The translations under genes and the position numbers were made by a program. Positions 8,597 through 63,406 of a stretch of DNA of 64,000 nt are shown in pieces. The stretch spans positions 62,001-126,000 of the forward strand of contig NZ_NPML01000019.1 of the NCBI RefSeq assembly GCF_002252565.1, given 5' to 3'. The notes under the pieces are model-generated. The model was not told the DNA's origin. It worked only from the letters and a program-made list of their open reading frames with translations, and did not search any database. This stretch comes from Petroclostridium xylanilyticum. GTDB lineage: Bacteria; Bacillota; Clostridia; SK-Y3. Each line of letters begins with the position of its first letter. The stretch's first letter is position 1.

Positions 8597-10372
8597 TTAA
8601 CTATGTATTGCCTTATGGCAATCCTCGCATACCACTAATGTTTTTCTATTTTTGATTTTCATTATCTGCTCCCAAAGCTTATTGCCTTCTAGTCCCTTTA
8701 CACTTGAAACATGGTGAACCTCATAATTAGACTTTCCCCTGCTACCGCAAAGCTCGCAAACTCCTGCTTGCAGTCTTGCTCTAATAGTAGCATTGGTATT
8801 TACAGAATAAATGTGTCTAACAATATTATCATCACAGAACCCTTTGCAATCTTGAAGTTTTACAATTCTCTTTTCTCGTGTTTTACCTTTTTCTGTTTTA
8901 TATTTTATTGCCCAACCTTTGCCGCTTTTATATTTGTCAATTACTTTACTTATTGAAGAATTATGCTTTCCTGCTAAAGTTGCAAGGCAGCTATATTCCA
9001 TCAAGTATTGAAAATAATTAAGTTTATTATAATTGTTGGCTAGGTGGTAATAATTGAGTATTCCACGAATTTCAGCATTGTATCTTTCCAAGATTTCTTG
9101 GTCTGGGAGATATAGCCATCCTTTTCTGTGTATCGGGTGAAACTTTTTAGCTTTGCTCTGTCTAATGATACCTTTATCAAACATAAACTTTTCTATCTTC
9201 TCTAAAGGAACTAATAATTCTACAGTGCCATTCAGCTGACGTTTCTTGTGTCCTAATGAATTAGTTGATATTTGTTGATTACGTCTAACTGAAATGTCAT
9301 ATCCTAAGAACCTAACTTTTTCACTACTGTGAGTAATCAAAGTCTTTTCATCACTTAAGGTAAGCTTTAATTCATCATTTAGAAATTCTCTTAATTGTTC
9401 TTTAATTTTAATGCAATCTTCTTTATTTCCTCTTACTGCTATTAAAAAGTCATCAGCATATCTTACAAAAGCTATATTTTTATCCGTTTGTGATTTATAG
9501 GGTAATTTCAAAAGTTTCTTACTATATTCATTAATTCTTGAAATCAGAACCGGTTTTTCTTCATCAGTAGCATTTTTAAGTTTCTGCTGTAACCAATATC
9601 TTTTCCCTCTAATCTCGTCGTATGTTGGATTTACACACCTTGTTGCCGGCTTATCGAAGTTTTGTTTAATCTCCATGATTTTATTATCCAATTCATTCAG
9701 ATAAATATTGGCAAGTATTGGGGATAAAATCCCTCCTTGAGGTGTTCCAGAATATGTTTGGTTATATCTGAAATCCTCTATATATCCTGCCTTTAGAAAA
9801 CTACGAATAATGTTTATAAACTTACTGTCTTTAATTTTTCTTTGTAATATTTCAATAAGCTTATCATGGTCAATATTATCAAAACAGCCTTTTATATCTC
9901 CTTCTATAAACCATCTTGCACCTTTGAAATATGGAAGTGTCTGCTTTAATGCAGTGTGACAACTTCTATTAGGTCTAAATCCATGTGAAAAATCACTAAA
10001 AATCGGTTCATAAATAGCTTCTAAAAATCTACGCATAACTTCTTGTAATAGCTTATCTCTAAATGACGGTATTCCTAAAGGTCGCATTTTCCCATTGGAT
10101 TTCTTGATATATTCTCTGCGTACCGGCTTGGGTTTATAAGTATTATTGCTTAATTCTTCTATTGAACTTTCTACATATTTCTTTCCAAATCCATCAGCAG
10201 TATCATTATCAATACCTTCAGTTGATGCTCCTTTATTGGAATATAATTTTTGGTATGCACTGTAATAAATATCTTCCCTTAAAAGATAACGGTATAAGCG
10301 AGTATATACTCCATCTTTGTGCTCATTTGAATTTTTATTGATACGCTCCAAAATTTCAGCTGTTGGTTTCAT
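8597..10372 (-). CDS. ltrA: Group II intron reverse transcriptase/maturase with HNH endonuclease
   Basis: 591 residues, full length for an LtrA-type protein, with GGCAGGAG before the ATG. The reverse transcriptase domain spans about residues 60-380. It includes RPLGIPSFRDKLLQEVMRR, HGFRPNRSCHTALKQ, GTPQGGILSPILANIYLNEL and the catalytic FVRYADDFLIAVRG (Tyr-Ala-Asp-Asp). The maturase X domain follows (YNAEIRGILNYYHLANNYNK). The last 60 residues form an HNH nuclease zinc unit (CELCG, YEVHHVSS, CEDCHKAIHS). The protein helps its intron fold, splice and invade DNA targets. No frame break is seen, so it is probably functional. Confidence 0.95.
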   Translation of the reverse strand: MKPTAEILERINKNSNEHKDGVYTRLYRYLLREDIYYSAYQKLYSNKGASTEGIDNDTADGFGKKYVESSIEELSNNTYKPKPVRREYIKKSNGKMRPLGIPSFRDKLLQEVMRRFLEAIYEPIFSDFSHGFRPNRSCHTALKQTLPYFKGARWFIEGDIKGCFDNIDHDKLIEILQRKIKDSKFINIIRSFLKAGYIEDFRYNQTYSGTPQGGILSPILANIYLNELDNKIMEIKQNFDKPATRCVNPTYDEIRGKRYWLQQKLKNATDEEKPVLISRINEYSKKLLKLPYKSQTDKNIAFVRYADDFLIAVRGNKEDCIKIKEQLREFLNDELKLTLSDEKTLITHSSEKVRFLGYDISVRRNQQISTNSLGHKKRQLNGTVELLVPLEKIEKFMFDKGIIRQSKAKKFHPIHRKGWLYLPDQEILERYNAEIRGILNYYHLANNYNKLNYFQYLMEYSCLATLAGKHNSSISKVIDKYKSGKGWAIKYKTEKGKTREKRIVKLQDCKGFCDDNIVRHIYSVNTNATIRARLQAGVCELCGSRGKSNYEVHHVSSVKGLEGNKLWEQIMKIKNRKTLVVCEDCHKAIHS

Positions 10373-31801: not shown

Positions 31802-33163
31802 CTATTCGTTCACTACTTTTACAACGTCATCCCATTTGTGACTTTCATACTTTGCACGTAATGCAGCTATATACTGTCCACCATTGATACTCCAACGCAT
31901 TCCCGCCTGTTTCATCCTTTGTCCAATCACCATTTTGTTACCACTTTCTATCGCTCCGCTGCCTATATAATAGCCTTTTTCTTTAAAAGTTTTATAGCGT
32001 ATTCGCTCTCGGTTGTTTTCCATATATGTTGGAAGATTTACTACATTGTCTGGTAACTTTTTAATCTTAACCTTGTTTACAATTTTAATTGCTTCTTCAA
32101 TTTCATCATTGTTTACTCTATCCATTACTTCTTTTACCCACCTTTTACGGTTTATCTCATCTTCAGGATATAGTATTTTTGCATACTGATGAACATTCTC
32201 ACTTAAGTGATAGTAGTCAAGTATCCTTACTGCATCCGGAAATAATTCGTCGCACATGTTCCATATCCACTGTGCTCCATCTCCTATGACAACTACTTCT
32301 TTTAGTTTACCGTAACCTGCTCTGGCGGCTGCTGCAAATATTGCCTTTTTAAATTCTGTGACGCTTCCAAAATATGATACATATTCCTTTTTTACAATTT
32401 TGATATTATCTTCTCCGCGCTTAATTACATCCTTATCAGTAAACACCAACCCTAACTTCATTTCACGCCAAGTCGTACCGTTTTGCTCTATCCTTGTATT
32501 TAACTGCATTCCATCGGTAAATATATATAGCTTCCCGTCTTTTCGCTTAGCCGGTGGTAGTTCTGGTGCTGCTATTTCCGGTTTTTCATAAGCTTGTTGT
32601 GCTTTTTCCATCTCTTTTTCAAATACTTTTTTACCAATTTCTTCAGATACAATCTGTATTTGGGTTGGACTTACCTCTACTTTTAATAGCTTTTTCAAAA
32701 CTTCCGATGCTCTTTCAAAAGATGGAAGCAGTTGTGCTACATAGGTTATCACTTCTACCATTGCCTTTGTAATCCGATGCTTATCATCAATTTCAATAAG
32801 TTTATCAATAACACCATAGCCCTTATGACATCTCCTGCAATGAACAATATCTCGTGTAACTGGGATGTGCCCAAACATTGATAATATATTGGTTTGTGAA
32901 TTTTTCTTTACTGTGATCAGTTTCTTTCCGCAGCTGCAATATTCATCAACTTTAGTTACTACAATATTGGTAAGTAACGCCCCTGCCATACATAGTATCA
33001 ATTGCGTTACTGCTTTAATTGTTGCGCCTACCATCTTCTCAATACTATTGATGGTTAGCTGTCCTTCGTGCTCTTTTTTTATTGCTTCCTCAACAAAATT
33101 CCTTAAAATACCTTCGACTTTTATGAGATTTTGTGTTAAAATCTCATTGGTATTTTTGATCAT
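31802..33163 (-). CDS. ISLre2-like (UPF0236) transposase
   Basis: 453 residues. A zinc ribbon (DEYCSCGKKLITVKKN, DIVHCRRCHKGYGVID) is followed by a helical region (ITKAMVEVITYVAQLLPSFE, RASEVLKKLLKVEVSPTQIQ) and an RNase H-type core with KLYIFTDGMQLN, VVVIGDGAQWIWNMCDELFP, RILDYYHLSENVHQYAK and GYYIGSGAIESGNKMVIGQR MKQAGMRWS. These are the motifs of the ISLre2/UPF0236 transposase family, probably DDE type. The frame is intact. The insertion lies where phage early genes should be, so it may have taken part in their loss. Terminal inverted repeats were not resolved. Confidence 0.9.
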   Translation of the reverse strand: MIKNTNEILTQNLIKVEGILRNFVEEAIKKEHEGQLTINSIEKMVGATIKAVTQLILCMAGALLTNIVVTKVDEYCSCGKKLITVKKNSQTNILSMFGHIPVTRDIVHCRRCHKGYGVIDKLIEIDDKHRITKAMVEVITYVAQLLPSFERASEVLKKLLKVEVSPTQIQIVSEEIGKKVFEKEMEKAQQAYEKPEIAAPELPPAKRKDGKLYIFTDGMQLNTRIEQNGTTWREMKLGLVFTDKDVIKRGEDNIKIVKKEYVSYFGSVTEFKKAIFAAAARAGYGKLKEVVVIGDGAQWIWNMCDELFPDAVRILDYYHLSENVHQYAKILYPEDEINRKRWVKEVMDRVNNDEIEEAIKIVNKVKIKKLPDNVVNLPTYMENNRERIRYKTFKEKGYYIGSGAIESGNKMVIGQRMKQAGMRWSINGGQYIAALRAKYESHKWDDVVKVVNE

Positions 33164-50610: not shown

Positions 50611-52362
50611 TTAAATATAGTACATGTTAGCTGAATTGCTATTAGATTTTTTATACTCCCGCACTAAATCCTCTAATGCAATGGCGCCAACGATAGCATT
50701 AATACTTTCATTAATCTTTTCCCATACATTCACCGCTAAACTATTTTCCACGCCGTTTTTTATATTGGCTTCTGTAATACTTTCATCAATAATGGATAAG
50801 CTTTCTTCAAACGTCTGCAACACCTCACCTACTGTTATGCTTAAAGCACGCTCTCCTAAAACATACCTTTTCCGTGTGCCCTCTATACTTTTCACTAACC
50901 CCGCTTTTATAAGTGCAGGAAGAATCTGCTCTAAATAAGTATCGGGTATATTCTGCCTTTTCGCTATATCCTCCAGTGTTACCTCATGGTCTGTAGAATT
51001 AATTGCAATATCTACTACCGTTCTCAAACCATATCTTCCCTTTTTAGAAATATCCATTTTTAAGCATCCCATAAAAATTCTGATATGGTCTTCCAATTGT
51101 GTAATATTTCCGGCATCCTCAACAGGTGCTACAATAATTCCTCCACCGCTTACATCAAACCCATCTACAATAACAAATCTACCGGTGTTTTGATTATCTT
51201 TAAATTTATCAAAGCAAACAGCTTGTTTTGTTTTTATGGTCACTTTCGCCACATCATTTATTTTTACTTCACTTGCATTTTCAATGGTTTCAAGGGTTGA
51301 AGCGTCTACCACTTTATCAATAGAAAAAATTTCACATTCCACTTCCTGGGTGGTTAACTTAAGTTTATATTTTTTATTTTTTACCAAATCCTGTTTACCC
51401 AGCCAGAACAGATTTGCTTTGAAAAGCTCTCCAATAAAAGGTACATCCTCTTTGTGGGAAATGAGCTCTCCTCTTTTGTTGAAGAATTCATCTTCCACGG
51501 TAATGCCCACAGACATTCCCGCCTGTACACTATCTCTTTTGTCTTTTTCTACCCAGTACTCTATGGTCTTTACGCGGGTCACCTTATTACCTGGGGAAAT
51601 AAGTATTTCATCACCCACCTTTAATTGTCCGGTTTCTATTCTCCCGGCAATGATTCTCCTGTCATCAAATTTATATACATCCTGGATGGGAAACCTTAAA
51701 GGTTTATCGCTAAGTTCCTTGTCTTTTTCAAAAAGGTCTATGGCTTTAAGGATAGGTTCTCCATCATACCATGGCATTTTTTCAGATGGAACGGTCATAT
51801 TTTCCCCTAAAAATGCAGATACCGGAATATACTTCTGGGGATATACACCCAGATTATTTAAAAACTCATTCATTTCATTACGGATTTGATTGAATCTTTC
51901 CTCCGAATAATCTACCAGGTCCATTTTATTTACGATAACATATACTTTTTGGATTCCAAGAAGAGAAAGGATGTAGCCATGCCTTTTGGACTGTTCCTGG
52001 ACACCTTCATAGGCATCTACCAGCAAAAGTGCCGCCTCTGCACTGGCTGCCCCCGATACCATATTCTTTAGAAATTCTTTATGTCCCGGTGCGTCTATGA
52101 TTACATAGTCTCTTCTTTCGGTATGAAACTGCAGCTGGGTTGTGTCTATTGTAATTCCCTGCCGCTGTTCTTCTTCAAAGGCATCTAAAAGATATGCATA
52201 CTCAAAAGGCTTCCCTTTTTCTTTGGAAATTCTTTTGACTCTCTCAATAGCACCTTCAGGCAATGATTTTGTATCATAAAGGAGTCTTCCAATCAATGTC
52301 GATTTCCCATGGTCTACATGACCTACTACAACAATTTTTAACGTTTCTCTTATACCGGACAT
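50611..52362 (-). CDS. cysN: CysN-type ATP sulfurylase GTPase fused to a CymR-like Rrf2 regulator
   Basis: 583 residues in one frame. Residues 1-425 are a CysN GTPase: GHVDHGKST (14-22), DAPGH (90-94) and NKMD (145-148), then the EF-Tu-like beta barrels. With CysD, it drives APS formation from ATP and sulfate. Residues 436-570 form an Rrf2 protein very like Cym[61 protein letters not shown] and [13 protein letters not shown]. No Cys for an iron-sulfur cluster is present, as in CymR. The wing motif GxxGGY is changed to GTRKRY. An internal ATG at 51057 starts the Rrf2 part and has a weak GGGA upstream, so a separate regulator may also be made. It is the last gene of the sulfur cluster. Confidence 0.93.
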
Positions 52363-52377
52363 AATATGCCTCCCTCC

Positions 52378-53178
52378 TCACATATACCCATCTTTTCGAA
52401 GCTTTTGCATTGCGTGTGCATCTTCCTGGTCCTGTGCTCTTCCTGCACGCTCGCTCACCTTTGTGTGTTTTAATTCTTCTATAATTTCATCAATAGTGGT
52501 TGCCGTTGATTCTATCTGCCCTGTACAAGGTGCGCAGCCAAGACTCCTGTATCTTCTTCCATCTTTAGCAAAATAAAGGTCAACCAGCGGAATATTCTCT
52601 CTCTTTATATATGCCCAGATATCAATCTCGTTCCAATGTAAAATTGGATGCACACGGATGTGATTACCTTTTGGAAAATCTGTTTTAAACTGGTCCCATA
52701 ATTCGGGAGGCTGATTGGTGTAATCCCATTCCGAATCCCTATTTCTTTCACTAAATACCCTTTCCTTTGAACGGGAACCTTCCTCATCTCTTCTGATCCC
52801 TAAAATCAATCCTTCAAATTCATATTTTTTTACTACCTGCTGGAGGGCATCGGTTTTGAGTGCCTTGCAGCACACCAGCCTCCCCTGTTCCGGTCCCATT
52901 CCGGCTTTAAGCGCCTCTTCATTTTTGTGTACAATAAGGTCCAGATTATATTCTTTAGCAATTCTGTCTCTGTAGGCTATCATTTCGGGAATTTTGTAAG
53001 TAGTATCTACATGAATGAAGGGAAACGGACAATGCCCGAAAAATGCTTTTTTAGCCAGCCATAACAATACGGTTGAATCCTTTCCGATGGACCACAACAT
53101 GCCCAATTTGCCAAACTTTTTATATGCCTCTCTTAATATATAAATACTCTGTGCTTCTAACCGGTCTAAATGTTCCAT
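52378..53178 (-). CDS. cysD: Sulfate adenylyltransferase subunit 2 CysD
   Basis: 266 residues. The PP-loop is [20 protein letters not shown]. Other typical parts are [77 protein letters not shown] and [20 protein letters not shown]. It adenylylates sulfate to APS with the CysN GTPase encoded 15 bases downstream. Confidence 0.96.
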
Positions 53179-53191
53179 AGGTTCTACCTCC

Positions 53192-53506
53192 TCAATACTT
53201 ATTGGATTCCTTTTGGTTAATGATTATCATTTGTTCTTCTCCACTGGCTTTAACAATAAACCAATGTAAAAAGTCCTTTTCTTTTTTTGTATATAAAAAT
53301 GCCCCTTTTCCGCCTATGTCCGCTCCAAGATAGTACTTTATGGCACCTGCCGGGCATTCTTTAAGGCAGGCTGTACACCCCCAGCATTCCTTTGGGTATT
53401 TTATAAAAGCCTTGTTCAAATTATCCCTGTACAAAAGATTTCCCGGACAGACGTTAAGGCATTTCCCGCAGGCCATGCATTTTTCTTTGTCTATTCTAAT
53501 GCTCAT
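53192..53506 (-). CDS. aprB: Adenylylsulfate reductase beta subunit (ferredoxin-like) AprB
   Basis: 104 residues from ATG at 53506, overlapping the aprA stop. Two [4Fe-4S] motifs: [16 protein letters not shown] and [17 protein letters not shown]. The C-terminal tail ([20 protein letters not shown]) is shorter than in dissimilatory AprB. It passes electrons to the FAD subunit for reduction of APS to sulfite. Gene order aprA-aprB-cysD-cysN makes the role clear. Confidence 0.9.
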
Positions 53507-55178
53507 AGATTTCATCTCTTCCTATCAAATCTCTGAATACAATTTCTAATTTTCCGTCCTCGTAACGTGAATTCACATATTTTCGCCAATGCTCATCATC
53601 TTTTTCGGGATAATCCGCATTTTCCTGATAACAGGGCCACCTTGTTTCCTTCCTTGCCTCCAGATGGCAAATAAGTACTTTGCAGATATCCAGGCGGTCT
53701 ATGATTTCATGAATAAATAAGAGCTGATGCAAATCTTTTGCTTTTAAGTTTTTGCTTATTTCTATCAGTTCTTCAATACGCTGTCCGGCTATTTTTAATT
53801 TATTGGCATTTACGACGTAACCTGCAGAAATCCCTCCGGCGTATTCATCCATTACCTTTTGCATAGCTTCTTCAACCTCTTCTATGCTGTACAAGCTTTC
53901 TCCTTCTTCCAGGAACCGGTTTACGCTTTGAAGTTTTTCCTCTATTTTTGAAGTATCAAGTCTTTCTATACTTTTGCCGGTTATATATTCAAGGGCTGAC
54001 ATAGCAGCAATTTCACCTTCTGCAAAACACCCGGTAACATATTTTTTAGGACTTCCTCCGGCTACATCCCCTGCAGCATACAGTCCCTCAAGGGTGGTGG
54101 CCCTTCTGGTGTCCACCCAATACCCGCTTGCAGTATGTCCTCCTACAATATAAGGCTCTGTCCCCTCTATCTCCACGTCCTCATCCCTGGGACCCCTGCC
54201 GGCTTCTACCCATTTTAGCGTTTGGGCAGGTGCCATGTTGAGATATGCCTTGTATAATTCTTCCTGCTGCTCTCTTGTAATTCCCCGGGTCTGTAAATAG
54301 CAAGGGCCTTTACCGCTCTTATTTTCTGATACAGTGGCATACAGACGCATTGAGGTGGAAGGGTTACCATATTTCTTCACATAGTCTTCTCCCCGGCTGT
54401 TTATCTGCTTTGCCCTGATTCCCTGAGCAATGGTCCCGGTGGGTGCGATTGTATCTTTGCACCTTAAAGCAATAAACCGCATCTCAAAGGTTGTCATTTC
54501 TGCACCGGCCCTGATTCCCATTGCATATCCCGCTCCTGTATTAAAAGGACTATACCACATCTTATGTCTTGAAAATCCGGGATTATTAGGTTTGTATAGT
54601 CCCGACGCTCCCCCGGTGGTACAAATCACTGCTTTGGCATAAATCACATAGAAGATGTTTTCCTCAAGAGAGAATCCGTAAGCCCCTATGACTCTCTTAC
54701 CCTTTACGATATAGTCAATTATGTTTACTCTGTTTAAAACCTGTATATTTTCCTTTTGCCGTACCGCTTCTGCAAGAATAGGTTTAATGTTTTCACCGTT
54801 AATCTTAATGCTTCTTTTGCCTCTGGAGACGTAGTTGCCTGCTTCATCTTTCAATATGGTAAGGCCCAGACTTTCAATTTTTTCAGTCACTTTGTTAAGT
54901 CTTTTTGCAATGGTATATACTAAATCTTCCCTGACCACTCCTTCGGAATCCTTTCTTACATAGTCCACATAGGATTCGGGCGTTTCTCCTTCGGTAATAT
55001 AAGCATTAAGTGCATTTACTCCTGCTGCAAGACAGCCGCTTCGCTTAATATTGGCCTTATCTGCTATAATCACCTTTGCCTTTGACTGTTCTGCAATGGT
55101 GATGGCACTATAGCAGCCTGCCGCTCCTCCACCGATAATCAGAATATCACTTTCAAGGGTTTTCAATTCTAAAGTCAT
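53496..55178 (-). CDS. aprA: Adenylylsulfate reductase alpha subunit AprA
   Basis: 560 residues; GGGGGAT precedes the ATG. FAD-binding start DILIIGGGAAGCYSAITIAE, then NIKRSGCLAAGVNALNAYIT, AVICTTGGASGLYKPNNPGF, and a conserved EMRFIALRCKDTIAPTGTIA. Near the end TLEGLYAAGDVAGGSPKKYV, TGCFAEGEIAAMSALEYITG matches the fumarate reductase-type fold. It reduces APS to sulfite and AMP. Dissimilatory sulfate reducers use AprAB for respiration; here, without dsrAB or qmo genes, an assimilatory role is more likely. Confidence 0.92.
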   Translation of the reverse strand: MTLELKTLESDILIIGGGAAGCYSAITIAEQSKAKVIIADKANIKRSGCLAAGVNALNAYITEGETPESYVDYVRKDSEGVVREDLVYTIAKRLNKVTEKIESLGLTILKDEAGNYVSRGKRSIKINGENIKPILAEAVRQKENIQVLNRVNIIDYIVKGKRVIGAYGFSLEENIFYVIYAKAVICTTGGASGLYKPNNPGFSRHKMWYSPFNTGAGYAMGIRAGAEMTTFEMRFIALRCKDTIAPTGTIAQGIRAKQINSRGEDYVKKYGNPSTSMRLYATVSENKSGKGPCYLQTRGITREQQEELYKAYLNMAPAQTLKWVEAGRGPRDEDVEIEGTEPYIVGGHTASGYWVDTRRATTLEGLYAAGDVAGGSPKKYVTGCFAEGEIAAMSALEYITGKSIERLDTSKIEEKLQSVNRFLEEGESLYSIEEVEEAMQKVMDEYAGGISAGYVVNANKLKIAGQRIEELIEISKNLKAKDLHQLLFIHEIIDRLDICKVLICHLEARKETRWPCYQENADYPEKDDEHWRKYVNSRYEDGKLEIVFRDLIGRDEIYEH

Positions 55179-55193
55179 ATAATCCCCCTCGTA

Positions 55194-55790
55194 TTAAGAT
55201 TCAATCCCTAAATACCTTATAATTCTATCTACACATTCTTCAATGGTCTGTTTATCTGTACTAATCGTAATTTCAGGGTTTTCAGGTTTTTCATAGGGTG
55301 AACTGATACCGGTAAATTCCTTTATTTCTCCTCTTCTTGCTTTTCTATATAAGTTTTTTGGGTCCCGGGATTCACATACTTCCAGAGAGCAGTCTACAAA
55401 AATCTCTATAAAATTTTCTTTGAGAAGCTCTCTGACCTTTTGGCGGTCTTCTTTTAAAGGAGAAATAAAAGTAGCAAGGGTGATGATTCCGGCATCCACA
55501 AAAAGTTTGCCTACTTCTCCTATTCTTCTTATATTTTCCTTCCGGTCCTCCACACTAAACCCTAAGTCTCTGTTTAACCCGTGTCTTATATTGTCTCCAT
55601 CCAGCAGGTAGGTCAGCTTTCCCATTTCAAAAAGCCTTTTTTCCAGCGCATTGGCTATTGTGGATTTCCCTGCTCCCGATAAACCTGTAAACCAGAGCAG
55701 CAATCCCTTTTGCTTTAATAGCCTTTCCCTGTCTTCTTTTGTAACACTTGCATGATGCCACATTACATTACTTGACCGTTGATTTTCCAT
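55194..55790 (-). CDS. cysC: Adenylylsulfate kinase CysC
   Basis: 198 residues: [20 protein letters not shown] (Walker A), [54 protein letters not shown] and [20 protein letters not shown]. Complete APS kinase that makes PAPS. Its presence is not needed for the AprAB route, so PAPS may serve sulfotransferases or balance APS levels. It lies between the sulfite reductase and aprA. Confidence 0.95.
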
Positions 55791-55826: not shown

Positions 55827-58127
55827 TTATACTTTTTTCTTTACAGTTAAAAGGTTGTATCCATCATAACCTGCATCAATGGATACTATTTCATGCCCTT
55901 CTGCTTCAACACTTTTAGGGACATTTTGTATAGGTTCTCCGTCGTCTAAATAAAAACCAATGGTTTCTCCCGGGGCGATTTTGGATAGTTCAATTTTTAC
56001 TTTTACAAAGTTGATTGGACATTTTACTCCTCTAAAATCTACAACTTTTCCTTTTAAATTTTCTTTTTCTTTATGTGAATCGGATATATTTTGCTCTTGT
56101 ACATCTTCTTTAGGTAGTGTAATTTCCAGTTGTGAATTTAAAGAAGAATATAATGCCTTTACTCTTGAAACCAGATATTCAACTTCGCTGTAGTATTCTG
56201 AAAGACTTTCCAAATCTCCCAATTTAAAATCTATAAAATTATCTATTAATTTCTGTATACTTCTTTTCACATAGCCTGTTTCTATAAAGTGCTTGTTAAA
56301 TTCTTCAAATATCTCTCTTTCTTTATTGGTATCAATTCCTTTCAGGATCAAAAGTGCCCTTGCAGCAGAAAGTCCCGCCTGATATAACTTTAATGACTGT
56401 GCATCAGCTTTAAATTCTTCTATATACCTATCTGCATTGGATAAGTCAAGCTGGATGACATCCAACACCCCTGCACTGCATTCCCCCGGCCCTCTTCCTT
56501 TTAGAGAAAATTCCTCCTCAGCTCCAAAATCAAAATATAAGTCAGAATTTTTTTCTATTGATTCAACATCACCATATTCTTTTATGAGCTGCGCTATCGT
56601 TTCTTTTTCTTTTTCTAAAAATTCTTCGAAAGAAGAATTTCCGGATTTTTGTTTTAAATTTGCCAGGGTATAAAGAAACTCAGGAATTCTTTTAGCCGGA
56701 AGATCTCCCTGGGGAGTTCCAAGCACTGCTTTATCTGCTCCTACATTTCCTCCAAAATAAACTGTATACATGGGAATCAGGCCATGTTCTGTCCTTTGCG
56801 CCTTTCCGGAAAAACCAATTCTTCCTTTTTGATGTTGCCCGCAGGAATTTGGACATCCTGAAATAAAGATTTTGGGAAGAGCCTCTTTTACTTCATCCTC
56901 TGCATTTTTAAACCGCTCTTTTATTGCAGATAAAAGATTTTGCGATAAGCATAAACCTAACTGGCATGTGGCAGCTCCTGCACAGGCTACGGAATTGTCA
57001 ATATCAAAAGGAGAAATGAATTCCGAAATGATATCAAGCAATCTGTCTGCATCTTCTCCATTTAAATCCCTTACGAAGAATCCCTGGGTACTGGTTAACC
57101 GGATGGAAATCGCATATCCTAAATTATTTAGAAACGAAAGAATTTTGTTTAAATTATTTGTACTTAAGTTTCCATTTTCAGGATGAATATATACCGAATA
57201 AAGCCCTTTTTCTTTTTGCTCAAATAGAAGATTGCTTCTGGACTGTGCCGTCTTCCCAACTGTTTTTTGCGTATTTTCCTCCGGTACTTCAAGCTCTAAT
57301 TTTCTTTCGCTTTTTACTTTTTCCACCTGTTGCCTGTACATTTTTCTGAATTCTTCTTCGCCTATCCTATGCACAATGTGCCGTATTCTCGCTTTATGTT
57401 TGTTGCTCCGGTCCCCTTCCTTTTCAAATAACTCTTTCATTGCCTGCACATGATAAAGTACTTCCTCCGCCGGAATTGTCTCTTCCAATTTTAAAGACAC
57501 CCTGGAGTTTCCACCCAGGCCTCCGCCGCCATAAACTTCAAAAGCCTTTTTTCCTGCCTGTATTTTAGCGATAAACCCTAAATCAGCAATGGTTGCATTG
57601 GCTGTGTCTTCCCGACTATTGGAATAGGCAATTTTAAATTTTCTGGGAAGATTATAAACCGTTGGATCCTGCAAAAGATAATTAGTAGTCTCAACTGCAT
57701 AAGGTGTAACATCAAATACCTCGTCCACAGCTACCCCGGAAAGAGGAGAGCAAGCTACATTTCTAGGGGTGTTTCCTCCTGTCCCTCTTGTAACCATGCC
57801 TACTTCCAAAAGTTCTTCCATAATATTTACCGTATCTTCAATGGTTACCCCGTGAAGCTGGACATCCTGCCTTGTGGTGAAATGAACTTTTCCATGGGCG
57901 TACCGGTCTGCCACTTCACTGATTTTTTGAAGCTGCTGTAGGCTGATAACTCCGCCTGCCACCCTCACCCGGGTCATGTAGGTTTCTTTTTTCCTTTGTT
58001 CATATACTCCCATGGGGACTCTAAAGGTTTTAAACCGGATTGCCTCTATGCTTCCCTTTTTATACCCATTGACCCTATTCTTATATTCTTTTATATCCTG
58101 CCTTATCTGTTCCGGTATCCTTAACAC
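55827..58127 (-). CDS. Sulfite reductase fused to a helical HEPN-like region and a TusA domain
   Basis: 766 residues. Residues 30-270 and 305-490 are the two nitrite/sulfite reductase halves. Siroheme and [4Fe-4S] ligands are Cys382, Cys388 (CAGAATC) and Cys425, Cys429 (CPNSC). Substrate-side basic residues appear in HFTTRQDVQLHG and VTRGTGGNTPRNVACSP. Residues 545-665 are a helical HEPN-like region (YQAGLSAARALLILKGIDTN). Residues 692-766 are a TusA/SirA-like domain (GKVVDFRGVKCPINFVKVKI) whose sulfur-carrying Cys is Cys703. The likely job is six-electron reduction of sulfite with sulfide handed directly to a persulfide carrier. It is neighbour to the ThiS/JAMM genes. Confidence 0.9.
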   Translation of the reverse strand: MLRIPEQIRQDIKEYKNRVNGYKKGSIEAIRFKTFRVPMGVYEQRKKETYMTRVRVAGGVISLQQLQKISEVADRYAHGKVHFTTRQDVQLHGVTIEDTVNIMEELLEVGMVTRGTGGNTPRNVACSPLSGVAVDEVFDVTPYAVETTNYLLQDPTVYNLPRKFKIAYSNSREDTANATIADLGFIAKIQAGKKAFEVYGGGGLGGNSRVSLKLEETIPAEEVLYHVQAMKELFEKEGDRSNKHKARIRHIVHRIGEEEFRKMYRQQVEKVKSERKLELEVPEENTQKTVGKTAQSRSNLLFEQKEKGLYSVYIHPENGNLSTNNLNKILSFLNNLGYAISIRLTSTQGFFVRDLNGEDADRLLDIISEFISPFDIDNSVACAGAATCQLGLCLSQNLLSAIKERFKNAEDEVKEALPKIFISGCPNSCGQHQKGRIGFSGKAQRTEHGLIPMYTVYFGGNVGADKAVLGTPQGDLPAKRIPEFLYTLANLKQKSGNSSFEEFLEKEKETIAQLIKEYGDVESIEKNSDLYFDFGAEEEFSLKGRGPGECSAGVLDVIQLDLSNADRYIEEFKADAQSLKLYQAGLSAARALLILKGIDTNKEREIFEEFNKHFIETGYVKRSIQKLIDNFIDFKLGDLESLSEYYSEVEYLVSRVKALYSSLNSQLEITLPKEDVQEQNISDSHKEKENLKGKVVDFRGVKCPINFVKVKIELSKIAPGETIGFYLDDGEPIQNVPKSVEAEGHEIVSIDAGYDGYNLLTVKKKV

Positions 58128-58142
58128 AATACCCCTCCCCTA

Positions 58143-58556
58143 TTACACAATTTCCACTTCGAGTTTTTCTACATTTTTGTTTTTATCAATTTTGAATATA
58201 TTAAAAACTGGTTCTTCTTTTTCTAAGGACAATATTCCGTAAACCGCCTCAGCATCAAAGGCTAATCTCTTATCTTCTTCCGAAGGCCTTGAAGGAGTAT
58301 AAGGATGAGAATGATAATTTCCCAGAAGTTCCAGACCTTCTTTTCTCATTTGTTTTACTACTGCAAACTGTTCTTTTGGGTCCATAGAAAAATGCTCGCT
58401 GCTTTGATCTACATTTTTCACTGCATAAATCTCCCGGATTAAAATTAAGCCCTCTTTCTTTTTGCCTCCCAGCAGTCCGCAGCACTCATAAGGAAATTCT
58501 TTTTTTGCATGAGAGATAATCTTTTCATAATTTTCCTTTGATAAAACAACAACCAT
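58143..58556 (-). CDS. JAMM/M67 metalloprotease for a sulfur carrier protein (Mec-like)
   Basis: 137 residues. The JAMM zinc motif is intact: Glu24 (FPYECCGLLGG), His82 and His84 (NYHSHPYTPS), Ser92 and Asp95 (RPSEED). Bacterial M67 enzymes cut after the Gly-Gly of ThiS-like carriers, either to unmask the end (QbsD, HcyD) or to free cysteine from the CysO adduct (Mec+). The two functions can be combined. It starts 4 bases after the activating enzyme gene. Confidence 0.93.
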   Translation of the reverse strand: MVVVLSKENYEKIISHAKKEFPYECCGLLGGKKKEGLILIREIYAVKNVDQSSEHFSMDPKEQFAVVKQMRKEGLELLGNYHSHPYTPSRPSEEDKRLAFDAEAVYGILSLEKEEPVFNIFKIDKNKNVEKLEVEIV

Positions 58557-58560
58557 TCAA

Positions 58561-59391
58561 TCACCCCTTTAAGGTGCCACTTTTCAGATCACAAACCGGC
58601 CTGCTGTAATCAATTAAATTTTTAATGATTGGTTCCTTTCCGCAAACCCCGCAATCCGGATTATGTCTTACTTTTATTTTTCTAAATTCCATTCGCAGTG
58701 CATCATAGGTCAGAAGATACCCTGAGAGGGATTCTCCCAGTCCCAGTATATACTTAATGGCTTCCGTCGCCTGCAATGTTCCGACTACCCCTCCCATAAC
58801 ACCTAATACCCCCGCTTCGCGGCAGGTAGGCACCAGCCCTTCTGGTGGCGGCTCTTTAAAGATACACCGGTAACACGGGGCATTTTCTCCTGGAACGTAG
58901 GTGGTCAGCTGCCCATGAAAACGGATAATTCCTGCGTGGGAAAAGGGTTTTTGTGCAAGAACACAGGCATCATTGATTAAGAATTTAGCCGCAAAATTGT
59001 CGGTCCCATCAATAATAAAGTCATAATCCTGGTCTTTTATAATATCTAAAATATTTGAAGAATCTACAAAGGTGTTGTAGGTAATAACATTGACATCGGG
59101 ATTCATTTCATTGATGGTTTCTTTTCCTGACTGTACTTTTAATTTTCCGATATCTTTTGTTTGATGAATAATTTGCCTCTGTAAATTGGATAAATCCACT
59201 ACGTCCCCATCCACCAGACCAATGGTTCCTATCCCTGCTGCTGCCAAAAACATCGCTGCCGGCGCTCCCAAGCCACCAGTCCCAATAACAAGGACTTTAG
59301 ATTGCAGTAATTTCTCCTGTCCTTCTACGCCAACTTCCTGTAAGATAATGTGGCGTGAATATCTTTCAATTTGTTGTTCATTAAAATCCAA
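58561..59391 (-). CDS. ThiF/MoeB-like sulfur carrier activating enzyme
   Basis: 276 residues from a TTG at 59391 that has GGGGGGTGG five bases upstream and gives the family start DFNEQQIERYSRHIILQEVG. ATP-binding loop VLVIGTGGLGAPAAMFLAAA, then DGDVVDLSNLQRQIIHQTKD; zinc Cys CYRC and CGVC; catalytic Cys loop LVPTCREAGVLGVMGG. It adenylylates the C-terminal Gly of the carrier for thiocarboxylation. It overlaps the carrier gene by 11 bases. No rhodanese domain is attached, so sulfur must come from another donor such as the TusA domain. Confidence 0.92.
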   Translation of the reverse strand: MDFNEQQIERYSRHIILQEVGVEGQEKLLQSKVLVIGTGGLGAPAAMFLAAAGIGTIGLVDGDVVDLSNLQRQIIHQTKDIGKLKVQSGKETINEMNPDVNVITYNTFVDSSNILDIIKDQDYDFIIDGTDNFAAKFLINDACVLAQKPFSHAGIIRFHGQLTTYVPGENAPCYRCIFKEPPPEGLVPTCREAGVLGVMGGVVGTLQATEAIKYILGLGESLSGYLLTYDALRMEFRKIKVRHNPDCGVCGKEPIIKNLIDYSRPVCDLKSGTLKG

Positions 59392-59596
59392 TGCTTCCAC
59401 CCCCCATGAAATAAAGCATCTCCAGTTCATCATTTTCCTTGATAATGGTTTTTTCATATTCTTCTTTAGAAAGGATTTGTTCGTTTAACTGTACTGTTAC
59501 CATATCCGGCATTTCAATTTTCTGGATTACTAAAAATTCTGCTATGTTCACCCCTTCTTGCACTTCTATCCAATTACCGTTTAATTTTACCTTCAT
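59381..59596 (-). CDS. ThiS-like sulfur carrier protein with masked Gly-Gly end
   Basis: 71 residues, a beta-grasp ubiquitin-like protein: MKVKLNGNWIEVQEGVNIAE, VTVQLNEQILSKEEYEKTII, KENDELEMLYFMGGG. The usual ThiS/MoaD/CysO ends at Gly-Gly. Here Gly65-Gly66-Gly67 is followed by Ser-Ile-Gly-Phe. That tail should block adenylylation until removed by the JAMM protease encoded nearby, as known for QbsE (GGCF) and HcyS. ATG with GGAGGATGGG upstream. It is not a thiamine gene by context: no other thi genes are here. Confidence 0.92.
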   Translation of the reverse strand: MKVKLNGNWIEVQEGVNIAEFLVIQKIEMPDMVTVQLNEQILSKEEYEKTIIKENDELEMLYFMGGGSIGF

Positions 59597-59630: not shown

Positions 59631-60425
59631 TCATATTCTATCCAATCCCCATCTGTATCTTATGTTAGATTCAATTCTGCCAAAGAAAAGTTTATCTACT
59701 ATTAATCCAAGTATTATAATTACAATCATGACAGCCATAACCTGGCTTATGTCTGCAAGTTCTCTTCCCATCATCAGCACCTGTCCTAATCCTATTGAGG
59801 CTGACATCATCTCGCCTGCCATTAATGCCCTCCAGGCAAATGACCATCCCTGTTTCATTCCTGAAATAATACTCGGTAGTGCAGCAGGAATAATAATGTT
59901 CCAATATGTTTTTATTCCCCTTGCTCCCATCGTTTTAGCAGCCCTGATATATAGCGGATTTACATTTTTAATTCCAGACTCAATGGCTATCGTAATGGCA
60001 AAAGTTGAGCCGATGGCTATCACAAATATAATTGCACTTTCATTAAGTCCATACCAGAGAATGGCAAAGGGTAACCAGCAAATGTTGGGAAGTGTTTGAA
60101 GTCCTACAATTAATGAGCTAAGATTTTCATCTATATATTTAAATCTTACAATCATAAGCCCCAGTATTACTCCTATTACCAATGAAATGAGATACCCAGC
60201 TGCAATTCTCTTTAAACTTGCCAGGATAGCGATTCCAAGCGTATTATCCATTATTAATCCGGCTAAGGTTTTCAATACGTCAATTGGAGAAGGAAAGATA
60301 TACGGCTTCCAAATACCTAAAAACTCTACACCCACTCTATAAACCAATTCCCATATAATTATCAGTATTAGATAGAACAGTGTCCTTTTGAATATTCCAA
60401 TCGCTATCGTACTCGGATTTTGCAA
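59631..60425 (-). CDS. ssuC: ABC transporter permease, SsuC-like
   Basis: 264 residues; TTG start with GGAGGTGG before it. Six membrane segments are visible (LFYLILIIIWELVYRV, YLISLVIGVILGLMIV, AIIFVIAIGSTFAITIAI and others). The EAA loop is AAKTMGARGIKTYWNIIIPA ALPSIISGMKQG. The gene overlaps the ATPase gene by 89 bases. Nitrate/sulfonate/taurine family. The substrate here is probably sulfate or a sulfonate. Confidence 0.9.
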   Translation of the reverse strand: MQNPSTIAIGIFKRTLFYLILIIIWELVYRVGVEFLGIWKPYIFPSPIDVLKTLAGLIMDNTLGIAILASLKRIAAGYLISLVIGVILGLMIVRFKYIDENLSSLIVGLQTLPNICWLPFAILWYGLNESAIIFVIAIGSTFAITIAIESGIKNVNPLYIRAAKTMGARGIKTYWNIIIPAALPSIISGMKQGWSFAWRALMAGEMMSASIGLGQVLMMGRELADISQVMAVMIVIIILGLIVDKLFFGRIESNIRYRWGLDRI

Positions 60426-61176
60426 CCTTTTCCACCTCCTCCTTCAATGCTCCCATGATATCGGCAACCATGTATGTCAAATCCAGACTTTCTAATTGTC
60501 TTGGCCGGGCAAGCTGTATATTAAATTCTTTTTTTACTCTCCCCGGGTTAGCAGCCATCACTATCACCCTGTCGGCCAACAGTACAGCTTCTTCTACATC
60601 ATGGGTGACAAATATGATTGTTTTCTTGGTCTCCCACCAAATTCGCTGCAGTTCCAACCGTAAGATGCTCTTTGTCTGGCTGTCCAATGCGGCAAAAGGC
60701 TCATCCATAAGCAAGACTTCCGAATCAAGGGTTAAAGCCCTGGCAAGTGCCACCCTTTGCCTCATACCACCCGACAATTCATGGATAAAGGAGTTTTGAA
60801 ACTTTGTTAGATGAACTAATTTAAGGTATTTTAGCGCTTTTTCCCTTCGCTGATTTTTTGGTATTCCGGCCATCTTCATTCCAAACTCTACATTTTCTAT
60901 GACGCTAAGCCACGGAAATAATGCTGATTCTTGGAACATTACTGCCCTATCGGGACCGGCTTCCTTTACCTCTTTACCATTTAATATGACAGTACCTTCC
61001 GATGCTTTTTCCAGTCCAGCTATAATATTTAATAGTGTTGACTTACCACATCCTGAAGGGCCCACAAGACATACAAATTCTCCTTGTTTAAATTCAAGGG
61101 TTACTTTATCCAGGGTATAGGTTTTCTTATGTCTGGTTATAAACTGTTTGCTCACACCATTAACAATTAAACTCAA
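60337..61176 (-). CDS. ssuB: ABC transporter ATPase, SsuB-like
   Basis: 279 residues from TTG at 61176, with GAGGTG six bases before it; a GTG three codons upstream is an alternative. Walker A VGPSGCGKSTLLNIIAGLEK, signature LSGGMRQRVALARAL, Walker B VLLMDEPFAALDSQ, H-loop IFVTHDVEEAVLLADRVIVM. The C-terminal tail is extended and overlaps the permease gene. Confidence 0.94.
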   Translation of the reverse strand: MSLIVNGVSKQFITRHKKTYTLDKVTLEFKQGEFVCLVGPSGCGKSTLLNIIAGLEKASEGTVILNGKEVKEAGPDRAVMFQESALFPWLSVIENVEFGMKMAGIPKNQRREKALKYLKLVHLTKFQNSFIHELSGGMRQRVALARALTLDSEVLLMDEPFAALDSQTKSILRLELQRIWWETKKTIIFVTHDVEEAVLLADRVIVMAANPGRVKKEFNIQLARPRQLESLDLTYMVADIMGALKEEVEKVAKSEYDSDWNIQKDTVLSNTDNYMGIGL

Positions 61177-61214
61177 AATCAACACCTCACAGAATCACCG
61201 TCTTTATCCATCTA

Positions 61215-62255
61215 TTACTTTACCTCTTGTACTCCTTTTTCTTTTAAGACCCTGTTGAGAATCTCAAGATTCAACAAATTTTCTGCATCTGGAGCTTGTT
61301 TTAAATTTCTTATATTCATAGAAAGCGTTATAAATTCTTTTATTGAATCTATTTCCGGATTGGTTGTGATCACTAATCTTTTGAATGATTCATCTAGGAC
61401 ATCTTTTGACAATGATTTTTTAGTCAATTCATTGATTTGTGCATTTACGGTTTCTTTGGCTTTATCCACATTTTCATTGACGTACTCTGTCAACTCAACA
61501 TGAGTCCTCAAAAATTTCTCTACAATATCAGGATATTCCTTTAAAAACTTTGTCCTTACAATGACTACAGCCGCAGCGTATTTTCCGTCTCTCCATACCT
61601 GGTCATAATCCAATACGATGTTCGCATTTACTTCTTTTACTAATCTAGATCCCCATGGTTCGGGAACTAACGCTGCATCTATATCCCCTTTATCAAGGAG
61701 TATCTTTATATCAGAGTTTGCTGCCTGCCGTATTTCAACAGTACCACCTTTCGTAGTACATTTAAGTCCATACTGCTGTAAAAGATATCTAAGAATTAAA
61801 TCCTGCGTATTGCCAAACTGTGGGACAGCAATTCTCTTACCGCTTAAATCTTTAATATCTTTAATTGCCGTATCTTTTCTTGAAACTAGTATTGCTCCTG
61901 CATTTGTCGCCCCAGATATTATCTGAAGTTCACCTTTTGATTTTACATATCCATTAATTGCCGGCCCGGGACCTATGTATCCTATATCTATTTCACCTGC
62001 CAGCAGTGCTTCTATTTCCGATGACCCTGCATTAAACTGTTTCCACTCTATCTTAATGTTATCACCTAAAGCTTTTTGAAATTGACCTTCTGCCTTACCT
62101 ATAAGCGCTTGCGAATGTGTTATATTTGGGAAATAAGCAATTCTTACAGTTAGATTTCCATCTTCTTTTTTAGCAGAACAAGCAGTAAAGGTCCCTACTA
62201 AAAAAATGAGTACAAAAAATACCATTATAACCTTAGTGATTCTATTGATATTCAT
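61215..62255 (-). CDS. ssuA: ABC transporter substrate-binding lipoprotein, SsuA-like
   Basis: 346 residues. Lipoprotein signal with lipobox ending at Cys26 (LVGTFTAC). Periplasmic-binding type II fold: VRIAYFPNITHSQALIGKAE, FNAGSSEIEALLAGEIDIGY, GPGPAINGYVKSKGELQIIS, RIAVPQFGNTQDLILRYLLQ and DIDAALVPEPWGSRLVKEV. Related to aliphatic sulfonate and taurine binders. No sulfonate monooxygenase is nearby, as expected for an anaerobe. Uptake of sulfate itself is possible because cysDN-aprAB follow. Confidence 0.92.
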   Translation of the reverse strand: MNINRITKVIMVFFVLIFLVGTFTACSAKKEDGNLTVRIAYFPNITHSQALIGKAEGQFQKALGDNIKIEWKQFNAGSSEIEALLAGEIDIGYIGPGPAINGYVKSKGELQIISGATNAGAILVSRKDTAIKDIKDLSGKRIAVPQFGNTQDLILRYLLQQYGLKCTTKGGTVEIRQAANSDIKILLDKGDIDAALVPEPWGSRLVKEVNANIVLDYDQVWRDGKYAAAVVIVRTKFLKEYPDIVEKFLRTHVELTEYVNENVDKAKETVNAQINELTKKSLSKDVLDESFKRLVITTNPEIDSIKEFITLSMNIRNLKQAPDAENLLNLEILNRVLKEKGVQEVK

Positions 62256-62381: not shown

Positions 62382-63320
62382 TCACTGTTCTTCCTGGAAA
62401 AGAACTGTAGACAGATATCTTTCACCGGTATCCGGCAATAAAACAACAATTGTCTTACCTTGATTTTCCGGCCGTTTTGCAATTTGAGTAGCCGCAAAGG
62501 CTGCTGCCCCGGAGGATATGCCAACTAATAATCCTTCAGCTTTAGCAAGCTTTCTGGCTGTTTCAAACGCTTCCTCATTTTTCACTTTAAAAATTTCATC
62601 AATAACTTCCTTATTTAAAATATCTGGAACAAAACCTGCACCTATCCCTTGAATTTTATGAGGTCCAGGATTTCCTCCTGATAAAACCGGGGAGTCATTT
62701 GGTTCTACAGCGATTATCTTAATGTTTGGGTTCTTTTGTTTTAGCACTTCTCCAACACCTGTGATTGTTCCACCAGTCCCTACACCGCCAACGAATATAT
62801 CAACCTGGCCTTCTGTGTCTCTCCATATCTCTTCAGCAGTTGTTTTTCTATGGATTTCAGGATTGGCAGGGTTTTTAAACTGTTGGGGAATAAAGGAATT
62901 TGGCGTCTTGGAAGCCAGCTCCTCCGCTTTTTTTATTGCACCTTTCATTCCTTCCACACCGGGAGTTAAAACCAATTCAGCCCCAAGAGCTTTTAAGAGA
63001 CTTCTTCTTTCTATACTCATTGTTTCAGGCATTACAAGTATAAGCTTATAACCTCTTGCTGCTGCCGTAAAAGCTAATGCAATACCTGTGTTCCCGCTTG
63101 TAGGCTCGATGATTACTGAATCTTTATTAATTAATCCTTTTTCTTCCGCATCTTTAATCATTGCATAACCAATTCTATCCTTCACACTTCCTAGAGGATT
63201 AAAATACTCCAGCTTAGCAATCACTTTTGCATGCAGATTATTATTTTTGTTATAATTCGATAGTTCCAGCAACGGAGTGTTACCAATTAAATCAGTTAGA
63301 TTTTTTGCAATCTTGGACAT
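62382..63320 (-). CDS. cysK: Cysteine synthase CysK
   Basis: 312 residues; GGAGGTAA before the ATG. PLP Lys47 lies in [14 protein letters not shown]; the substrate loop is [12 protein letters not shown] (75-79); phosphate loop [13 protein letters not shown]-terminal [10 protein letters not shown]. It joins sulfide, or a protein thiocarboxylate, to O-acetylserine or O-phosphoserine. It is the first gene of the sulfur cluster. In Bacillus CysK also controls CymR, which is notable since a CymR-like domain ends the same cluster. Confidence 0.95.
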
Positions 63321-63377: not shown

Positions 63378-63406
63378 ATTATACCACCGGTAATAATAAT
63401 TGTCAA
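63378..63406 (-). promoter_or_regulatory. Consensus sigma-A promoter of cysK
   Basis: Minus strand TTGACA (63406-63401), exactly 17 bases, then TATAAT (63383-63378). Both hexamers are perfect. It probably drives cysK and much of the downstream cluster and would need repression, which suits the site just downstream. Confidence 0.92.

Follow-up and report, generated by a model that had tools for sequence, protein, structure and literature searches.

Sulfate activation costs the cell both ATP and GTP. In C. acetobutylicum, the cysC-cysD-cysN operon is predicted to be regulated by CymR (PMC3828012). Rrf2 proteins, including CymR, share a conserved motif, Lx3Gx6Gx2GGx2L, whose glycine residues contact DNA together with Arg59 of IscR, and Rrf2–DNA structures stress the minor-groove Arg59/60 in addition to this motif (PMC9338935). 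CysK, CysE, CysD, and CysN are stated to be able to form complexes (PMC6829319), CysE, CdiA, and CymR carry C-terminal Ile motifs that have been tied to CysK binding (PMC12895370), and the C-terminal Ile of CysE and CdiA inserts into the CysK active site (PMC12895370; PMC4961446). We analyzed a stretch of 64,000 nt from Petroclostridium xylanilyticum (contig NZ_NPML01000019.1, positions 62,001–126,000 of the forward strand), hereafter the window, in which CysN and an Rrf2 domain form one polypeptide. We found no description of a CysN–Rrf2 fusion in the literature searched, in agreement with the initial annotation of this DNA, which knew of none.

A complete Rrf2 domain is joined in frame to CysN

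The initial annotation had read the frame as open from the CysN GTPase into a full Rrf2 domain, and this reading was borne out. The frame runs without an internal stop from 52362 down to 50611, and the plus strand is closed there. The P-loop (GHVDHGKST, residues 14–22) and the NKMD motif (residues 145–148) lie where they had been placed, as do the gene's coordinates. Three domain profiles score above their cut-offs: TIGR02034 (CysN) with 358.5 bits over residues 8–402 (cut-off 336.1), PF02082 (Rrf2) with 95.5 bits over residues 438–568 (cut-off 30), and TIGR00738 with 97.8 bits over residues 436–568 (cut-off 73.3). The same fusion is present in a second, independent genome, that of Candidatus Petromonas tenebris (hereafter Petromonas), so chance or a sequencing or assembly error is excluded. 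The Rrf2 domain joined in frame to CysN is complete and of CymR-like descent. The gene and its parts are:

50611–52362, minus strand: cysN-Rrf2 fusion gene, 583 aa (ORF call and domain profiles)
51130–52362, minus strand: CysN GTPase core, residues 1–411 (TIGR02034; 86% identical to the Petromonas fusion)
51058–51129, minus strand: linker, residues 412–435 (residues in common with Petromonas; low model confidence)
50611–51057, minus strand: Rrf2/CymR-like domain, residues 436–583 (PF02082/TIGR00738; model pLDDT 82.7; PDB matches IscR and CymR)
50854–50886, minus strand: wing region, residues 493–503 (wing GG and basic residue lost; motif as in PMC9338935)
50614–50625, minus strand: C-terminal tail MYYI, candidate CysK-docking motif (sequence comparison; PMC12895370)

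Two other identities were rejected. The protein is not a bifunctional CysNC, since a domain profile search found no APS kinase domain in it and its score for CysNC (PRK05506) is 396.2 against a cut-off of 715. Nor is it an Fe–S regulator, since residues 436–583 hold no Cys, as the annotation had noted together with the wing sequence GTRKRY; the score for the IscR equivalog is 86.3 bits against a cut-off of 207.55.

The annotation had also proposed that an internal ATG at 51057 could give a free regulator. This codon (Met436) exists, is kept in both fusions, and marks the position of the old start codon. However, Shine-Dalgarno pairing there is weak in the window (−4.0 kcal/mol) and absent in Petromonas (+1.5 kcal/mol), against −12.0 and −8.2 kcal/mol, respectively, at the two CysN starts. 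A separate regulator from Met436 is therefore unlikely. With the Rrf2 part in frame with CysN and its internal start weak, the gene does not encode CymR as a separate repressor protein.

The fusion lies in a sulfur operon, with the partner gene cysD directly adjacent to cysN:

52378–53178, minus strand: cysD, sulfate adenylyltransferase small subunit, directly upstream of the cysN fusion (PF01507)
53192–53515, minus strand: aprB-like ferredoxin subunit
53496–55178, minus strand: aprA, adenylylsulfate reductase alpha (NF005331, 973.5 bits)
55194–55790, minus strand: cysC, APS kinase (PF01583)
55827–58127, minus strand: sulfite/nitrite-reductase-like protein with a C-terminal TusA domain (PF01077, PF03460, PF01206)
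58143–58556, minus strand: JAMM-type protease (PF14464)
58561–59457, minus strand: MoeB/ThiF-type E1 enzyme
59381–59596, minus strand: ThiS-like sulfur carrier ending GGGSIGF (PF02597)
59631–62255, minus strand: ssuC, ssuB, and ssuA-like ABC transporter (SsuA family TIGR01728; ssuB and ssuC named from translation)
62382–63320, minus strand: cysK, first gene of the operon, TSGNTG substrate loop kept
63378–63406, minus strand: promoter-like TTGACA-17-TATAAT upstream of cysK (sequence)

An inverted-repeat search upstream of cysK found no clear CymR-type palindrome; possible GGAATA-like half-sites follow the −10 box. Several other features of the window were recorded. The reductase-like protein fused to the TusA sulfur carrier (55827–58127) occurs in Petromonas too, and the ThiS-like carrier, MoeB-type E1, and JAMM protease (58143–59596) resemble a CysO-Mec type cysteine route. 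A prophage-like region (7104–34506), read from translations only, holds portal, terminase, capsid, integrase, and recombinase genes, together with ORFs that resemble a group II intron reverse transcriptase (8597–10372) and a transposase (31802–33163).

The fusion is rare and its two known cases suggest one origin

A scan for close relatives (one genome per species; 28 loci returned) gave the second case, in Petromonas (L021, 8001–9746), again beside cysD and in the gene order of the window, cysC-aprA-aprB-cysD-cysN-Rrf2. The window protein is thus not a sole exception among homologues encoded separately, which the annotation had named as a ground for doubt. Junction-profile searches found no further fusion in 391 genomes of the class, 398 of the phylum, and 60 relatives of Petromonas, and viral contigs yielded no relatives. 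With no additional case in these genome samples, the CysN–Rrf2 fusion is real but rare.

The two fusions are 75% identical overall, 86% in the CysN part and 50% in the Rrf2 part, and the linker residues QLED....F..C are common to both. In phylogenetic trees, their CysN halves form one clade (support 100/99), as do their Rrf2 halves (support 100/99), the latter on a long stem (0.78). Given that each half falls in a single clade, the simplest reading is one origin, by which a CymR-type Rrf2 would have been joined to the CysN C-terminus once.

Other CysNs of the clade differ from about residue 412 onward. They have there either a kinase-like domain or an unrelated domain, here called domain X and complete in 19 cases; more distant CysNs carry an intact or degenerate APS kinase as their extension. 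Domain X (CysN C-termini of L022–L043) is beta-rich and not related to Rrf2, and has no Pfam match and no significant PDB match, though it models well. The captured Rrf2 most likely replaced the domain X present at this position in most close homologues. Two genomes with domain X, those of Clostridia bacterium SKW182 and Anaerobacterium chartisolvens, encode a free CymR-like Rrf2 as the first gene of the same sulfur operon, which there ends in cysN-X. The fusion and a free isc-linked protein account for both Rrf2 domains of the window's genome; the free protein is full-length, and the Petromonas genome likewise has one full-length free isc-linked Rrf2.

DNA-contact residues are lost and the predicted fold is retained

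The Rrf2 parts of the two fusions were compared with 42 free relatives, and equivalences to E. coli IscR were taken from our own alignment. Both fusions are changed at several positions on or close to the DNA. Residue 473, which opens the recognition helix, is Ser in all 42 free relatives and Pro in both fusions. Position 485 is Ile/Val in the fusions and Arg/Lys in 42/42 free relatives, position 494, the equivalent of IscR Arg59, is Glu/Asp rather than Lys/Arg (42/42), and the wing residue Gly498, invariant in the free relatives (42/42), is Lys in both fusions. The second wing Gly is changed in the window fusion only, so that the GG of the wing is replaced by KR in the window fusion and by KG in that of Petromonas. 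As a result, the two fusions alone fail the Lx3Gx6Gx2GGx2L motif, which all 42 free relatives have. Of 29 conserved winged helix-turn-helix (wHTH) columns, the two fusions keep 22 and 17 (free minimum, 26); of eight conserved C-terminal columns, they keep 5 and 6 (free minimum, 5). Between the fusions, a single pair, identity is 56% in the wHTH and 62% in the dimer helix, against 67% and 46% for pairs of free proteins; the dimer helix is the more alike of the two in only 0.9% of 861 free pairs, and to the fusions' extent in 0.2%. An AF2 model of the Rrf2 part of the window fusion is closest to IscR and CymR, with TM-scores of 0.74–0.83 when normalized by the target, and shows a disordered tail; the Rrf2 fold is thus predicted to be intact. 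The captured copy has decayed at its DNA-contact positions, from which we infer that DNA binding itself was lost.

"CymR-like" holds for descent and fold, but the domain misses the cut-off of the CymR equivalog NF047409 (97.1 vs 195 bits), and the proposal that it still functions as CymR to repress its own genes finds no support, given the loss in both fusions of the wing GG, the wing basic residue, Ser473, and Arg/Lys485. In a modified form of that proposal, the protein would act as a trigger enzyme: it would still bind DNA, through an altered wing and with a changed sequence preference, and repress the sulfur operon in the manner of CymR, tied to the state or abundance of CysN. The intact fold in the model, the CymR control predicted for the C. 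acetobutylicum operon, and the free CymR-like Rrf2 that heads the same operon in related genomes would fit this, as would its absence from the window's genome, where the isc-linked protein is the only other Rrf2. The window fusion also keeps Tyr476, Glu478, and Gln479 of the recognition-helix Tyr-Leu-Glu-Gln and has gained a basic RKR in its wing, so that altered DNA binding by this protein is possible. The contact residues lost in both fusions, including the Arg59 equivalent, argue against a trigger enzyme, as do the missed equivalog cut-off and two further changes in Petromonas (Tyr476 to His, Gln479 to Glu); moreover, the isc-linked Rrf2 could be the controller of the operon instead. We consider this explanation unlikely.

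The isc-linked Rrf2 could also be the target of the fusion. A fused domain that had lost its DNA contacts and retained dimer-helix similarity might heterodimerize with this protein, of which both genomes have one full-length copy, and remove it from DNA, whereby CysN abundance would relieve repression. The heterodimer is putative, however, and the fused and free domains sit on separate branches; such a dominant-negative role seems highly improbable to us.

The Rrf2 part has diverged far more than CysN, and its dN/dS between the fusions (about 0.46) is relaxed compared with that of CysN (about 0.06). Separately, the dimer-helix region (50650–50760, 38 codons) shows low synonymous divergence between the fusions (pS 0.37 vs 0.64 in CysN). 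The greater divergence and relaxed dN/dS, with the loss of the tail in Petromonas (see below), would be expected of a decaying passenger, joined to the C-terminus by chance and tolerated there with little or no function. However, dN/dS is still below 1, the frame is open in two genomes, and the shared derived residues, conserved dimer helix, and good fold model also speak against this reading; we consider a passenger very unlikely.

An Ile tail recurs at the C-termini of CysN and CysA proteins

The window fusion ends in MYYI, as do 31 of the 42 free relatives, and Ile is the last residue in 41 of them. The Petromonas fusion ends in QLIC, without the tail, despite a CysK-family gene in that genome. 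Among domain-X CysNs of the clade, all 16 distinct sequences end in [DE][YFW]x[IL] after a hypervariable stretch, with 0.3–0.9 bits at three positions against 2.6–3.3 in the preceding eight residues; the loci examined contain 339 ORF ends, and of the remaining ones only those of one degenerate-kinase CysN and two Sporomusa CysA proteins (EDYVI) have this ending. In a class-wide sample of CysNs, an aromatic-x-Ile end is present in none of the seven with an intact kinase P-loop and in 8 of the 22 others, and these eight span domain-X, degenerate-kinase, and Rrf2 extensions.

Similar ends were noted elsewhere. CysNs with a degenerate APS-kinase-like extension (L202–L204, L044) also end in EYYI, DYYI, or EYYL, which suggests that the tail was gained repeatedly. 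Seven CysA proteins score above the family cut-off, and every one of them has a C-terminal Ile and an aromatic residue at −2 or −3, a tail that resembles a CysK-docking motif (EDYVI, EDYCI, DDYII, VYI, VFI, or YYI; L152–L157, L171, and L030 4006–5079); such a tail is absent from all 16 paralogues below the cut-off that were read. The CysE of the window's genome ends in ESET, without Ile, and most CysE proteins of the genomes examined likewise have no C-terminal Ile.

We also considered whether the tail occurs only where CysK is present. One genome (G053) has neither, but the divergent domain-X CysNs of G248 and G168 have no tail although CysK is present, so co-occurrence of tail and CysK is not a strict rule.

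A proposed role for the fused Rrf2 domain

The fusion, its conservation, the single clades that point to one origin, the residue losses, the intact predicted fold, and the tail are shown by the data and are the starting points of our proposal. CysK docking or dimerization would suit the retained features better than a working repressor would. We therefore favor over an operon repressor, and give close to an even chance to, a reading in which the fused Rrf2 domain is a CysK-docking and dimer module that tunes sulfate activation after translation; we infer dimerization, CysK docking, and an effect on CysDN. A captured CymR copy would have lost the residues that grip DNA and kept its fold and dimerization helix, and the window copy would also have kept its flexible MYYI tail. 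The fused domain would dimerize CysN (CysDN), and the Ile tail would let CysK dock by its active site. When cysteine is plentiful, O-acetylserine (OAS) would be low and CysK free to dock on the tail, whereas high OAS would displace the tail from CysK, and sulfate activation would then track cysteine demand. The tail is absent from the Petromonas fusion, so docking cannot be the single function common to both proteins and is put forward as a hypothesis. The relaxed dN/dS of the fused Rrf2, the possibility of altered DNA binding by the window fusion, and the tailless domain-X CysNs in genomes with CysK weigh against the proposal as well.

A broader version, which we regard as somewhat doubtful, would make CysK a hub that docks the C-terminal Ile tails of CymR, CysN, and the importer ATPase CysA, with OAS gating both sulfate uptake and activation. 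Domain X, the degenerate kinase, and the decayed CymR would be interchangeable tail carriers, and the fusion would be a CymR captured for that purpose.

If docking is correct, fusion would have turned a transcription factor into a regulatory subunit of an enzyme, with its DNA contacts lost and its dimer and docking parts kept. It would provide a direct post-translational link from CysK, the last step of cysteine synthesis, to CysDN, the first committed and energy-costly step, perhaps extending to sulfate import through CysA, in anaerobes whose CysE mostly has no classic docking tail.

Comparison with known systems

CymR of B. subtilis and S. aureus, an Rrf2 regulator that binds CysK, resembles the fused domain in its fold, dimer helix, lack of cluster Cys, and sulfur-operon context, and that of the window, but not of Petromonas, also in its C-terminal Ile tail; unlike CymR, the window protein is fused to CysN, has lost the wing motif and DNA-contact residues, and falls below the CymR equivalog cut-off. 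The Fe–S regulators IscR and NsrR share the Rrf2 fold, whereas the window protein has neither the cluster Cys nor an intact wing. CysE and CdiA-CT likewise carry a C-terminal Ile tail, which in their case enters the CysK active site; such docking is only proposed for the window fusion and is not a known property of CysN. CysNs with domain X (Pelosinus, Sporomusa, Clostridium) have a core 70–84% identical over the matched part, the same operon type, and a C-terminal Tyr-x-Ile tail, but their extension is beta-rich and without Pfam or PDB match where the fusion has Rrf2. CysNC/NodQ, in which CysN is followed by an APS kinase, has an extra C-terminal domain in the same position; there the addition is a kinase, whereas here it is a wHTH derived from a regulator, and cysC is a separate gene.
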